Assembly: GCF_001462455.1 (NCBI RefSeq)
Contig: NZ_LNTD01000072.1
Span: forward strand, 1-64,000
Length of the DNA: 64,000 bases
From: Cellulomonas sp. B6
Lineage (GTDB): Bacteria > Actinomycetota > Actinomycetes > Actinomycetales > Cellulomonadaceae
Direction of reading: 5' to 3'
The notes below the pieces were generated by a model. That model saw nothing but the letters and a program-made list of their open reading frames with translations. It was not told where the DNA came from and did no database searches. Positions within the stretch are counted from its first letter, which is position 1. Each line of letters begins with the position of its first letter. Position numbers and translations under genes: made by a program. Positions 19,752 through 40,169 of this stretch are shown piece by piece.

Positions 19752-20681
19752 ATGCCTGCCGTGACGTCCGCCACCCACCCGTTCGGGTCGCTGCTGTCGG
19801 CGATGGTCACCCCGATGACCCCCGACGGCACGATCGACCTCGAGGCGACGGTCCGGCTCGCGAAGCACCTGGTCGACGCGGGGCACGACGGGCTCGTCCT
19901 CAACGGCACCACCGGCGAGGCGTCCACGACCCACTCGCCCGAGAAGGAGGCGGTCGTCGCGGCCGTCGTCGAGGCGGTCGGCGACCGTGCCTACGTCGTC
20001 GCGGGCGCCGGCTCCAACGACACCGCCCACGCGGTCCGCATGGCCGAGCAGGCCGCGGCCGCCGGTGCGCACGGCCTGCTCGTGGTCACCCCGTACTACT
20101 CGCGCCCCTCGCAGGAGGGCGTCGCGCGGCACGTCACGGCGATCGCCGACTCGACCGACCTGCCCGTCATGCTCTACGACGTGCCCGGCCGCGCGGTCGT
20201 CCGCCTCGCCCCGGCCACGATCGACCGCCTCGCGGAGCACGAGCGCGTCGTCGCGGTCAAGGACGCCTCGGGCGACGTCGTGGAGGCCGCGCGCGCGATC
20301 ACGCGCACCGGCCTGGCCTGGTACGGCGGCGACGACGCGCTCGCGCTCGCGTTCCTCGCGCACGGCGCCGTCGGGCTCGTGGGCGTCACGACGCAGGTCG
20401 CGCCCGAGGTGTTCGCGCGACTCTTCGCCGCGTGGCACGCGGGCGACGTCTCCGGCGCGCTGGACGTGTACCGATCGATCCTCCCGGCCGTCACGGCCGT
20501 CAACGGCGCGGGCTTCCAGGCCTCCGCCGCCAAGGCCGCGCTCGTCGAGCTCGGCGTCCTCAGCGGTCGCGCCATGCGGCTGCCCCTCGTCCCCTTCACC
20601 GACGACGAGGCCGCGCACGTGCGCGCCGGTCTGGCGGCCAGCGGTCTGCTCGACGTCGTCGCGGGTGCCGACCGCGCGTGA
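19752..20681 (+). CDS. dapA: 4-hydroxy-tetrahydrodipicolinate synthase
   Basis: Condenses pyruvate with aspartate semialdehyde, the first committed step of the diaminopimelate pathway. It has 309 residues in a TIM barrel. The family motif GLVLNGTTGEASTT, the Tyr in VTPYYSRPSQEG and the Schiff-base Lys in VVAVKDASGD are all present. The ATG start is set by the leaderless -10. RNase J follows 37 bp downstream, an order conserved in actinobacteria. Confidence 0.97.
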   Translation: MPAVTSATHPFGSLLSAMVTPMTPDGTIDLEATVRLAKHLVDAGHDGLVLNGTTGEASTTHSPEKEAVVAAVVEAVGDRAYVVAGAGSNDTAHAVRMAEQAAAAGAHGLLVVTPYYSRPSQEGVARHVTAIADSTDLPVMLYDVPGRAVVRLAPATIDRLAEHERVVAVKDASGDVVEAARAITRTGLAWYGGDDALALAFLAHGAVGLVGVTTQVAPEVFARLFAAWHAGDVSGALDVYRSILPAVTAVNGAGFQASAAKAALVELGVLSGRAMRLPLVPFTDDEAAHVRAGLAASGLLDVVAGADRA

Positions 20682-30538: not shown

Positions 30539-31360
30539 TCAGGTGCGTCCGCGCACCTGGCAGCCGGGGCACCAGTACACCTGGCGCTGCGTGGGAGCCT
30601 GACCGATCTCGTCGCGTGCGACGCGCGCACCGCAGCGCATGCAGGTGCGTCCCTCGCGGCCGTACACGGCCGCGTCAGGACGTCCCGTGGCCACCGAGGC
30701 CCGCAGCAGGGCCCGACCGGCGCGGAGCACCTCGTGCGCGTCGTCCACGGCGTCCGCCCGGGCCCAGGGCCACCAGCCGCGCGCGAACAGCGACTCGGCC
30801 ATGAAGATCGTGCCCAGCCCTGCGACGACCCGCTGGTCCAGCAGGACCTCGCCGACCGGGCGGGCGCCCTGCGCGTGCCACCGCCGCACGGCCTCGTCGA
30901 TGCCCGGCGTCGGCAGGTCGAGCACCGGAGGACCCGCCCACGGCACGCCCGGGGTCTCGTCGAAGTCGCCGTCGAGGACGTCGGGGCCGAGGTGCCCCAG
31001 CAGCGCCCGCTCGCCCGAGGTCGGCACGACGTCGAGCATGCCGAGCTGGAACCCGACGGCCGTCCATCCTGCGACGGCCAGCACCGCCCGGACCTGCGGC
31101 GACCGCGCGGCGGCCCGCCGGTCCGACGACGGGACGACGCGCCACGTGCCGTCCATCCGCAGGTGGGTGTGCAGCGTGCGGCCGTCGTCGAAGCGCGTGA
31201 GCAGGTGCTTGCCGTAGGGGCGTGCGCCCAGCACGGTCCGCCCGCGCAGGTCGACCGTCGCCGCCGTGGGCCAGCGCAGGTCGGCCCGCACGAGCCGGTG
31301 CCCCGCCAGCGCGCGGTCGAGGTGCGCGGCGGCCCGGCGCAGCACGTCACCCTCGGGCAC
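30539..31360 (-). CDS. nei: Endonuclease VIII-like DNA glycosylase
   Basis: Removes oxidised pyrimidines and cleaves the strand at the abasic site. It has 273 residues. The N-terminus MPEGDVLRRAAAHLDRAL has the catalytic Pro2-Glu3 of the Fpg/Nei family, GTIFMAESLFARGWWP contains the helix-two-turn-helix, and the C-terminal zinc finger is C-x2-C-x16-C-x2-C (CMRCG...YWCPGC). MPEGD fits Nei better than Fpg. It sits 123 bp downstream of lhr on the same strand, the lhr-nei pairing known from actinobacteria. GTG start with GGAG 6 nt upstream. Confidence 0.92.
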   Translation of the reverse strand: MPEGDVLRRAAAHLDRALAGHRLVRADLRWPTAATVDLRGRTVLGARPYGKHLLTRFDDGRTLHTHLRMDGTWRVVPSSDRRAAARSPQVRAVLAVAGWTAVGFQLGMLDVVPTSGERALLGHLGPDVLDGDFDETPGVPWAGPPVLDLPTPGIDEAVRRWHAQGARPVGEVLLDQRVVAGLGTIFMAESLFARGWWPWARADAVDDAHEVLRAGRALLRASVATGRPDAAVYGREGRTCMRCGARVARDEIGQAPTQRQVYWCPGCQVRGRT

Positions 31361-31483: not shown

Positions 31484-36574
<5,091 letters not shown>

Positions 36575-36580
36575 CGGGCC

Positions 36581-36603
36581 ATTGTGTCGGTTGGCACCGA
36601 CAC
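36581..36603 (-). promoter_or_regulatory. DNA-damage (RecA_NDp/PafBC-type) promoter of lhr
   Basis: Minus strand: GTGTCGGTG (36595-36603), exactly 8 nt, then CACAAT (36581-36586), 6 nt, then the GTG. The mycobacterial consensus is TTGTCRGTG-N8-TAnnnT; 8 of 9 upstream bases match, while the -10 is degenerate. Confidence 0.65.
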
Positions 36604-36625
36604 GCGCGGCCCGGCGCGGCGGTGG

Positions 36626-36631
36626 CAGGCT
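36626..36631 (+). promoter_or_regulatory. -10 of a leaderless promoter (DUF3046 gene)
   Basis: CAGGCT is followed by 6 nt and the GTG at 36638. It is divergent from the lhr promoter in a 63-bp gap. Confidence 0.5.
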
Positions 36632-36637
36632 GGGGGT

Positions 36638-36880
36638 GTGAGGTATCGCGAGCTGACCGACCTGGTGGACGACGTGCTGGGACCGGTCCAGGGCCGGCTG
36701 CTGCTCGACGAGCTGGTGCTCGGCGAGCTCGGGGGGCGCACCGGTGCCGTCGCGCTCGCGGACGGCGAGGACCCGCGCAGCGTCTGGCACGCGCTGTGCG
36801 ACGAGCTCGGCATCCCCGACGCGCGCCGCTGGGGCAGCGACCCGCACCGCCAGGCGCCGCCGCGCCGCTCGGACCGCTGA
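36638..36880 (+). CDS. DUF3046 family protein
   Basis: 80 residues. The DUF3046 pattern is visible: RYRELTDLVDDVLGPVQGR, VLGELGGRTGAVALADGEDP, and VWHALCDELGIPDARRWG near the C-terminus. These small cytoplasmic proteins are found just upstream of recA in many actinobacteria; no function is established that I know of. The frame is open far upstream but that part is antisense to lhr; the GTG at 36638 gives the family-standard N-terminus. The phosphatase-fold gene starts 5 bp after its stop. Confidence 0.88.
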   Translation: MRYRELTDLVDDVLGPVQGRLLLDELVLGELGGRTGAVALADGEDPRSVWHALCDELGIPDARRWGSDPHRQAPPRRSDR

Positions 36881-36885
36881 CCCCC

Positions 36886-39165
36886 GTGGCCCGCGACTCC
36901 CGCCCACCCGCGCCCGACGACCGCCGTCGCCTGGTGCCGCGAGCGGTCGACGTGGGCGACGCGCTCGTCTCTCTCGCGGTCACGGCCCTCGGGCTGGGCG
37001 TCGCGATCGTCGTGGTCGACGGCGTCAGCGCGACGACGCCCTGGGGAGTCCTGCTCGCCGCGCTCGCGGTCGCGGTGGGCGACCTGGTGCTGCGGGCGCC
37101 GCTGCGGGTGCTCGCGACGGTCGCGGGCGCGGGCGGTGCGCTGGTGGCGGGCCTCGCGGCGCAGGTCCTGGTGCTGTGGGGCGCCCTGTCCGTGGCGTCC
37201 GGGGTCGAGGTGACCTCGGGCTGGGCCGTGCTGTGGGTGCTGGTCCTGACGTCCGTGGTCATGGCCGTCGGGCGGTGGCTGTGGGGGGCGAGCGACAACG
37301 AGTACGTGGTCGCCGACGTCGTGCGCCGGGCGCAGCGTGGCGCCCGCGTGCCCGCCGGCGAGCCGGGGGAGCGGCCGCGCGGCATGCTCGTCGTGCAGCT
37401 CGACGGCGTCAGCGCGCCCGTGCTCGACCAGGCGTTCGACGCCGGGCTCGTCCCCACGATGCAGCGGTGGGTCGAGGACGGCACGCACCGGCTCGCGCCC
37501 TGGTGGGCGACCGTGCCGTGCACCACGCCCGCCGCGCAGGCCGGGATCCTGCACGGCGCGGCCGACCAGATCCCCGCCTTCCGGTGGTGGGACCGCGACC
37601 TGCGCCGGCTGGTGGTGACGAACCACCCCGACGACGCGGCGCTCGTCGAGGAGCGGCTGAGCGACGGGTCCGGGCTGCTGACGGGCGGCGGCACCGCGGT
37701 CGCGACGATGTTCTCGGGCGACGCGGCGTCGTCGTACCTCGTGATGAGCCGCGGGCGCCGGCACGGCCTCGGGCCGGGGCCCGGCTACGTGCGGTTCTTC
37801 GCGCGGCCGTTCGTGCTGGCACGGGCCGTGACGGTGACGGTCGGCGAGGTCGTCAAGGAGCTGTACCAGGCGCGCCGCCAGACGGTGCACGACGTGCGTC
37901 CGCGCGTGCCGCGCGGCGGCTGGTACGTGCTGCTGCGCGCCGTGACGAACGTCCTGCTGCGCGACCTGGCGACGTCGCTCGTGGCGGACGCGCTGGTGCG
38001 CGGCGACCCGACGGTGTTCGTCGACCTCGTGGACCACGACGAGGTCGCGCACCACGCCGGCCCGACGCGCCCCGAGTCGCTGCGCTCGCTCGAGGGGCTG
38101 GACCAGGTGCTGCGGATCCTCGAGCAGGTCGTGCGCGTGGCGCCGCGCGAGTACGACCTCGTCGTGCTGTCCGACCACGGCCAGAGCCTGGGCTCGACGT
38201 TCGAGCAGGTCGAGGGTCGGTCGCTCCTGGCGACCGTGCGCGCCCTCATGGCCGAGCCCGACGTCGACGGCCTCGAGAGCACGGACGGCGAGGACTGGGG
38301 ACCGCTCAACGCGCTGCTCACGAGCGTGCTCGGGCGGCCGGGCGACCCGGTCGTGCTCGGCCCCGACGCCGGTCCGGAGCGCCGCCGGGGACGGGCGCGC
38401 CGCGACGGCGGCGTCCCGCGCGTGCGCGAGCACGGCCGGGCGCCACGAGCCGACGGCACGGGGTCCGACGACGCCGTGCCCGACGTCGTGGTCGTCGGCT
38501 CGGGCAACCTCGGACTCGTGTGGTTCCCCGACGCGCCCGCGCGGCTCGTGCTCGAGGAGGTGCAGGAGCGCTGGCCCGGTCTGGTGGCGGGCCTCGCGGC
38601 CCGTCCCGCGGTGGGGGTCGTCGTCGTCGACTCGCGGACCCGCGGCCTCGTCGCCGTGGGGCGGTCGGGGCTGCGCCTGCTGGAGGCCGAGGGGGACGTC
38701 GTCGAGGGCGACGACCCGCTCGCGGCCTACCCGGGCCGGGCGCGCGCCGACCTCGTCCGGGCCGCGCGGCTCCCGCACACGGGCGACCTGCTGGTCGTCT
38801 CGGCGGTCGACGCGCGCGGGCACGTGCACGCGTTCGAGGGGCAGGTCGGTTCGCACGGCGGGCTCGGTGGCCCGCAGAACCTCGCGTTCCTGCTGCACCC
38901 GAGCGACCTCGCGGTCGACGACGCCCTGTGCGAGGACGCCGCCGGCGGCCGGGTGCTGGTCGGCCCGGACGCGGTGCACGCGCAGCTCGTCGCGTGGCTC
39001 GTGGCGCGCGGCGTGCGGCCGGTCGGCCCCGGGACGCGGCACGACGTCGGTCGGGGCGCCGGTCACGCCGTCGGCGGCGCGCCCGCGGTCGGGGACGACG
39101 TCGGGTCCGGGGTCGGCGACGACGTCGCGGGCGGGGCTGCGCGCGGTGCGGGGGAGGCGACGTGA
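36886..39165 (+). CDS. Membrane-anchored alkaline-phosphatase-fold protein with holin-like N-terminus
   Basis: 759 residues. Residues ~20-135 hold about four hydrophobic segments resembling the phage-holin superfamily IV region. The rest is an alkaline phosphatase/nucleotide pyrophosphatase fold: VVQLDGVSAPVLDQAF (metal Asp), VPCTTPAAQAGILHG (nucleophile Thr), FVDLVDHDEVAHHAG and VVLSDHGQSLGSTF (metal ligands). The last ~45 residues are Gly/Ala/Asp-rich and probably disordered. The substrate is unknown. It starts 5 bp after the DUF3046 gene and its stop overlaps the MBL gene start by 4 bp. Confidence 0.88.
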   Translation: MARDSRPPAPDDRRRLVPRAVDVGDALVSLAVTALGLGVAIVVVDGVSATTPWGVLLAALAVAVGDLVLRAPLRVLATVAGAGGALVAGLAAQVLVLWGALSVASGVEVTSGWAVLWVLVLTSVVMAVGRWLWGASDNEYVVADVVRRAQRGARVPAGEPGERPRGMLVVQLDGVSAPVLDQAFDAGLVPTMQRWVEDGTHRLAPWWATVPCTTPAAQAGILHGAADQIPAFRWWDRDLRRLVVTNHPDDAALVEERLSDGSGLLTGGGTAVATMFSGDAASSYLVMSRGRRHGLGPGPGYVRFFARPFVLARAVTVTVGEVVKELYQARRQTVHDVRPRVPRGGWYVLLRAVTNVLLRDLATSLVADALVRGDPTVFVDLVDHDEVAHHAGPTRPESLRSLEGLDQVLRILEQVVRVAPREYDLVVLSDHGQSLGSTFEQVEGRSLLATVRALMAEPDVDGLESTDGEDWGPLNALLTSVLGRPGDPVVLGPDAGPERRRGRARRDGGVPRVREHGRAPRADGTGSDDAVPDVVVVGSGNLGLVWFPDAPARLVLEEVQERWPGLVAGLAARPAVGVVVVDSRTRGLVAVGRSGLRLLEAEGDVVEGDDPLAAYPGRARADLVRAARLPHTGDLLVVSAVDARGHVHAFEGQVGSHGGLGGPQNLAFLLHPSDLAVDDALCEDAAGGRVLVGPDAVHAQLVAWLVARGVRPVGPGTRHDVGRGAGHAVGGAPAVGDDVGSGVGDDVAGGAARGAGEAT

Positions 39166-40043: not shown

Positions 40044-40066
40044 TCGAACACGTGTTCGGGTAGCGT
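40044..40066 (+). promoter_or_regulatory. LexA (SOS) box and promoter P1 of recA
   Basis: CGAACACGTGTTCG (40045-40058) is a perfect 14-bp palindrome preceded by T, matching the actinobacterial SOS box TCGAAC-N4-GTTCGA except at the last base. It lies directly upstream of a -10 hexamer TAGCGT (40061-40066), so LexA bound here would block polymerase. The leader would be ~160 nt. Confidence 0.9.
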
Positions 40067-40146: not shown

Positions 40147-40169
40147 ATGTCGGTGGTCGGGCATAGCGT
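40147..40169 (+). promoter_or_regulatory. Second, RecA_NDp/PafBC-type promoter of recA
   Basis: ATGTCGGTG (40147-40155), exactly 8 nt, then TAGCGT (40164-40169). It matches TTGTCRGTG-N8-TAnnnT at 8 of 9 upstream positions and the full -10, ~65 nt before the start codon. Confidence 0.8.

Follow-up and report, generated by a model that had tools for sequence, protein, structure and literature searches.

A probable PafBC-type promoter of lhr-nei2 in Cellulomonas sp. B6 with a −10 box lacking the first T

The element upstream of lhr in Cellulomonas sp. B6 is very probably a promoter of the PafBC-dependent (RecA-NDp) type, which would deliver lhr and the following nei2-like gene as a leaderless mRNA; this reading was drawn from sequence comparison. 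The observations behind it are that the bipartite element keeps its spacing and its distance from the start codon in most lhr genes examined from the class, that T at −12 is consistently missing while A stands at −8, and that PafC is encoded in the genome. PafBC control of lhr-nei2 is already known in mycobacteria, and so is the promoter class. The additions made here are the conserved absence of the first T and the A at −8, which together with the predicted leaderless start constitute a variant missed by the published patterns as written.

The putative lhr promoter in the window

The features of the window, which is the whole 64-kb stretch of DNA analysed, are collected in Table 1. Direct reading and a pattern search gave the order G-TGTCGGTG-CCAACCGA-CACAAT-GGCCCG-GTG on the minus strand at lhr. 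The sequence-only reading had placed TGTCGGTG exactly 8 nt before CACAAT, the latter 6 nt before the GTG of lhr, and had equated the core with that of recA; both points were confirmed, the two cores being identical over 8 bases. In the 64-kb window the pattern TGTCGGTG-N8-nAnnnT matches twice, at lhr and recA only, against 0.03 matches expected from 100 dinucleotide shuffles. The identity of Lhr is given by WH_Lhr, WH2/3/4_Lhr and DEAD_assoc above cut-off, i.e. four Lhr-specific winged-helix Pfam families in addition to helicase domains. For the gene behind it the best NCBIfam match is endonuc_Nei2 with 168.9 bits, which is below the cut-off of 400, and Pfam reports Fapy_DNA_glyco. Since the gene downstream of lhr matches Nei2 best, the mycobacterial order lhr-nei2 is kept.

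Table 1. Features of the window around lhr and recA
Feature	Position	Strand	Remarks
nei2-like DNA glycosylase/AP lyase gene	30539..31360	−	next downstream of lhr, 123 nt gap
lhr, large helicase-related protein, 1696 aa	31484..36574	−	Pfam WH_Lhr, WH2/WH3/WH4_Lhr, DEAD, Helicase_C, DEAD_assoc
GTG, lhr start codon and inferred leaderless transcription start	36572..36574	−	6 nt after the −10 box
CACAAT, lhr −10 box	36581..36586	−	without T at −12, with A at −9 and −8
CCAACCGA, spacer of the lhr promoter	36587..36594	−	exactly 8 nt
TGTCGGTG, PafBC-type −26 element of lhr	36595..36602	−	leading G added by 36603
GTGTCGGT-GCCA-ACCGACAC, perfect 8+4+8 dyad	36584..36603		overlaps the lhr promoter; judged incidental
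DUF3046 gene	36638..36880	+	divergent, intergenic region common with lhr; PF11248, 77.6 bits
CGAACACGTGTTCG, LexA-type SOS box of recA	40045..40058	+	exact copy
TGTCGGTG-N8-TAGCGT, PafBC-type promoter of recA	40148..40169	+	64 nt before recA ATG; RecA by Pfam

Two published consensus sequences are relevant, as given in the available text of the two articles: tTGTCRgtg-8 nt-TannnT, in which the first T is required (PMC5656591), and TGTCGG-10N-TA-3N-T with two relaxed cores, which also keeps the first T (PMC8151990). The lhr promoter has the TGTCRgtg element and the 8-nt spacing of PafBC-dependent (RecA-NDp) promoters, while its −10 box is CACAAT instead of TannnT with T first. This departure from the consensus of PMC5656591 counts against the assignment and, because the first −10 T is missing, the lhr promoter is filed as a variant rather than as a plain member of the class. 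The sequence-only reading had pointed out the absent T and had made the strength of the box depend on the activator for that reason. The absence stands; a weaker box does not follow from it alone, since CACAAT shares 4 of 6 positions with TATAAT, against 3 of 6 for TAGCGT of recA, and the form without T is itself conserved. The recA promoter of the same window shares the 8-base core and the spacing with lhr; it differs in having TAGCGT, a 64-nt leader and a LexA box, whereas lhr has CACAAT and neither leader nor LexA box.

A search for the LexA-type box CGAACNNNNGTTCG with at most one mismatch found none at lhr; the closest one, with a single mismatch, lies at 37425, and LexA control of lhr was rejected on the lack of a box there. 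A sigma-70 −35 hexamer TTGACA 16–18 nt before a −10 box was likewise looked for in 36500–36760 with no match, and a housekeeping promoter for lhr was rejected on the lack of a −35/−10 pair in that interval.

Conservation of the element at lhr

The upstream regions of lhr were compared in the best 90 of the 198 family genomes with a match (40 of the same genus, 16 genera, two pairs with identical sequence). Each was scored, with a maximum of 11 and a threshold of at least 9, for TGTSRGTG, spacing 8, A at −11 and T at −7. As the scan scored the A at −11 and the T at −7, these two columns are partly imposed; the first and fifth −10 bases and the start codon do not enter the score. The threshold was reached in 89/90 upstreams of these best 90 of 198. 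A start codon follows the −10 box in all 89 sites, after 6 nt in 85 and after 7 nt in 4, and it is in frame with lhr without a stop in 88, the exception (L101) belonging to a draft genome that is 81% complete.

Controls were made on the same best 90 of 198. Block shuffling gave 41/1800 by score and 2/1800 with the start codon in place; the reverse strand gave 8/90 and 5/90, respectively. At spacings 5–7 and 9–11 the element with the start codon in place was found in 0 to 11 of 90 upstreams, against 89/90 at spacing 8. By score alone, spacings 10 and 11 reached 48/90 and 44/90, of which only 11 and 10 had the start codon in place, and the remaining off-spacings reached 2 to 17 of 90.

The lhr element spans many families of the class, a further difference from the mycobacterial RecA-NDp/P1 promoters. 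For 88 further genomes of the class, among the matches listed, 68 upstreams reached the threshold of 9; the start codon was in place in 58 of these and in frame in 57. The best 80 loci of named species gave 63 by score and 56 with the start codon, all 56 in frame, and the element is present in 18/18 Streptomyces species among these 80. One Streptomyces locus (L372) has its site 117 nt upstream of the first conserved codon, yet in frame. Family f10 gave 20/24 by score and 16 with the start codon, all in frame. The samples overlap slightly: 5 of the 80 named-species genomes are also in other samples, and one f10 genome (G317) is also in the class sample.

A score below 9 was obtained for 20/88 upstreams of the class sample (among the matches listed), 17/80 of the named species (best 80 loci) and 4/24 of f10. 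These low scorers have partly a variant element, TGTCGTAC in Blastococcus and relatives, and partly nothing recognisable. In Blastococcus and Trujillonella (L340, L341, L353, L354, L358) and in others, TGTCGTAC-N8-GACACT stands at the usual distance from the lhr start codon, and PafB may have evolved together with this altered −26 element. Six other sites (L309, L315, L320, L327, L331, L348; from Phycicoccus, an Intrasporangiaceae MAG, Tetrasphaera, Knoellia and Flexivirga) carry GAGGGT, GAGGCT, GAGAGT or GAAGCT with no start codon 6–7 nt on. In Phycicoccus and these relatives, the leaderless arrangement at lhr seems to be lost, or the start lies elsewhere.

The candidate activator and rival explanations

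PafC is encoded in the Cellulomonas genome, with the HTH PF19187 (120 bits), WYL and WCX, and directly before pafC lies a gene for a PafB-like WYL/WCX protein, which is called PafB by its position and its WYL/WCX domains only. PafC and a candidate for PafB, the two proteins that a PafBC-dependent promoter demands, were found in this genome. The PafC HTH was found in 287/296 genomes of the class. Of the 9 without a match, 6 are less than 90% complete and 2, both of family f36 (G228, G279), are near-complete. PafC was not found in G269 and G443, drafts of 91% and 81% completeness, in which the lhr site is still present; any comparison of the loss of PafC with that of the motif concerns these two genomes only, as they are the ones among the 9 that the lhr sample covered.

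For mycobacteria, the available text of PMC11804915 describes binding of the −26 motif by the HTH of PafB, single-stranded DNA as the signal and sigma adaptation as the mode of action. At lhr, damage would accordingly produce single-stranded DNA that binds PafBC, and PafBC would join the housekeeping RNA polymerase holoenzyme. PafB would then recognise TGTCGGTG at −26, which would substitute for a −35 box as found in mycobacteria, and the polymerase would open CACAAT and start the RNA at GTG or within one base of it, which would give a leaderless lhr mRNA. PafBC binding, the transcription start, damage induction and co-transcription of nei2 are what we infer for this locus.

Mycobacterial Lhr had been counted among the damage-induced proteins by the sequence-only reading; the accessible part of PMC11323726 indeed reports upregulation of lhr-nei2 through PafBC in mycobacteria. 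The shared PafBC-type control of recA and lhr that had been thought plausible on this ground finds support in the positional conservation, the genome scan (see below), PafC with its PafB-like partner and the same article, and as a prediction it is well supported. The mycobacterial lhr-nei2 operon has the same gene pair in the same order and reported PafBC regulation, in a different organism. Mycobacterial RecA-NDp/P1/PafBC promoters in general resemble the lhr promoter in the TGTCGGTG element, the 8-nt spacing and the −10 box with A second and T sixth, and as here they serve repair genes in a genome encoding PafC. Unlike them, the lhr promoter has no first −10 T, has A as the fifth base and is followed by the start codon 6–7 nt on. 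A search made largely without subscription literature found no paper on a leaderless PafBC −10 form lacking the T.

The same promoter might be served by another activator, such as another WYL protein, a SiwR-like factor or ClgR, which we regard as improbable. The genome has two more WYL matches (C21, C20), and the two draft genomes without a PafC match retain the lhr site; the element nevertheless stands at many repair genes, as PafBC would predict. ClgR was reported to recognise the recA P1 motif of M. smegmatis, but according to the available text of the same article the induction of P1 needs PafBC (PMC5656591), and the cores of lhr and recA are identical. SiwR is a palindrome-binding factor that works from a −26 site; the SiwR promoter, as far as described in the accessible text of PMC10693628, has a palindrome and GGA at −26, whereas the dyad at lhr is not kept. 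That dyad, GTGTCGGT-GCCA-ACCGACAC, could itself be thought of as the operator of a dimeric repressor acting on the divergent DUF3046 gene as well. It has all 8 pairs in the window and comes near to that in close relatives, with 7 or 8 of 8 pairs in 13/89 lhr promoters (best 90 of 198). Among the same 89 its arms show no covariation (mean of 4.66 pairs against 4.59 after shuffling, P = 0.15), and the left arm and the −10 box persist when the right arm changes. The PafBC motif, moreover, is described as non-palindromic in the available text of PMC6789036. An operator is very unlikely and was rejected on the lack of covariation of the arms; the dyad, which did not figure in the sequence-only reading, looks incidental.

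Least probable of all is a chance match in GC-rich DNA. The genome contains 39 TGTCGGTG-N8-nAnnnT sites, of which 15 lack an ORF of 100 aa with its start 0–12 nt downstream, although recA with its 64-nt leader is among these 15. The fixed place of the element in 89/90 relatives (best 90 of 198) and widely over the class refutes chance at lhr, where a PafBC-type promoter is the reading we prefer.

The candidate regulon and two possible forms of the −10 box

The pattern TGTCRGTG-N{4,14}-TANNNT gave 17 matches in the Cellulomonas genome, 15 of them at spacing 8, and the reversed-pattern control gave 0. Eight of these 15 strict sites (spacing 8, TANNNT) precede repair genes, a group that makes up a few percent of the genes in bacteria. 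Seven were assigned by Pfam, namely RecA, SbcD, a Nei/Fpg glycosylase, UvrB, UvrC, a UvrD-type helicase and a UvrB-interaction-domain protein (Mfd by eye), and one, a UvrA-like protein whose first 400 residues gave no Pfam match, by eye only. The other 7 strict sites belong to two glyoxalase-type genes, an ABC permease, an ABC ATPase, a further ABC transporter, an isochorismatase-type and a luciferase-type gene.

The non-T sites examined numbered 40, of which 24 came from TGTCGGTG-N8-nAnnnT and 16, out of 23 spacing-8 matches, were selected for A as the fifth base. An ORF of at least 100 aa starts exactly 6 nt on in 11/40, against 0.9 per other distance (binomial P ~1e-9), and in 6/24 of those not selected for A (P ~1e-5). 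In the off-spacing control for the A-selected pattern, 1 of the 17 sites considered out of 49 had a start 5–8 nt on. Ten of the 15 non-T sites with a start 5–8 nt on begin a repair gene by Pfam: a UvrD-type helicase, an exonuclease III type (the Pfam family match is general and the name was given by eye), Lhr, SRAP, two ATP-dependent DNA ligases, an AlkZ-like protein, RecO, an O6-methylguanine methyltransferase and a DinB type. For one further target the DNA polymerase A match is just below cut-off, and the remaining four are MDMPI, Ppx/GppA, DUF4132 and an ORF without a family (L409). In this genome-wide scan, which the sequence-only reading had proposed, the sites are concentrated at the starts of repair genes rather than evenly spread.

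The first −10 base of the 89 family lhr sites (best 90 of 198) is C in 74, G in 14, A in 1 and T in none, and the fifth is A in 86/89. For the 58 leaderless lhr sites of the class sample (among the matches listed) the first base is C in 36, G in 17 and A in 5. In recA, by comparison, T is the first and G the fifth base in 30/30 family genomes. The uvrB promoter has T first in 27/30, and all 27 have the start codon 6 nt on and none has A fifth; because the leaderless uvrB has the T, absence of a leader does not explain the missing T, which goes with the gene. The recO promoter resembles that of lhr, 21/30 loci qualifying with G (20) or C (1) first and A fifth in 21/21.

For exonuclease III, 15/30 loci qualify (score of at least 9, leaderless). 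All 15 have A fifth; five have C or G first and ten have T first and T second, with TTGGAT or TTTGAT as the −10 box. In the xthA upstreams (L428–L457), CAGGAT, GAGGAT or GATGAT alternates with TTGGAT or TTTGAT, so that the first two −10 bases change together. A few lhr sites in the wider samples (L187, L245, L318, L404; L187 and L318 from one genome) likewise read TTGGAT, TTGAAT or TTCAAT. These boxes of exonuclease III and lhr refute a rule that A at −11 is always kept, and in all of them the T at −12 is accompanied by loss of the A at −11. TANNAT was not seen in the qualifying sets of lhr, recO, recA, uvrB and exonuclease III. Among the TGTCGGTG-N8-nAnnnT sites of the Cellulomonas genome, A is fifth in 0/15 with T first and in 6/8 non-T sites that start a gene 6–8 nt on (Fisher P = 0.0003). 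L409 was left out of this test because its ORF belongs to no recognised family and the reading frame continues upstream; with it counted, the values are 6/9 and P = 0.0006.

These counts would fit two forms of the PafBC −10 box, one with T at −12 and without A at −8 (TANNGT of recA and uvrB) and the other with A at −8 and without T at −12 (SANRAT of lhr and recO). The full box would be avoided in both, which would keep basal transcription low, and the second, leaderless form would mark out a half of the PafBC regulon that has stayed hidden throughout Actinomycetes, Streptomyces included. We regard the chances for and against this idea as evenly balanced, because few sites were counted and the genes do not constitute independent samples. 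Published motifs that require the T would here drop lhr-nei2, recO, exonuclease III, the two DNA ligases, the AlkZ-like glycosylase, SRAP, ogt and dinB. In S. venezuelae, an initial search suggested that the PafBC motif of M. smegmatis is not conserved, and a similar LexA-independent response was left open in the text available from PMC9380542. The relaxed −10 box with a start codon 6–7 nt on provides a directly testable gene list for this question in Streptomyces, with lhr first.

Some sites of the scan are worth recording on their own. Two strict sites (L049 and L050; C143:20392-20413 on the minus and 20512-20533 on the plus strand) lie 98 nt apart at the divergent ABC permease and ATPase genes, where a damage regulator would not be expected to act. 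L039 (C35:1719-1742, plus strand), which unlike the other off-spacing TANNNT site has a start codon in place, combines TGTCAGTG with TACGCT at spacing 10 and lies 6 nt before a small HNH endonuclease-type gene (Pfam HNH). The same leaderless element as at lhr precedes the DUF4132 gene (L424, C126:18428-18449, minus strand) and the mycothiol-dependent maleylpyruvate isomerase-like gene (L410, C85:11528-11549, minus strand), and both are candidates for unrecognised damage-response genes.
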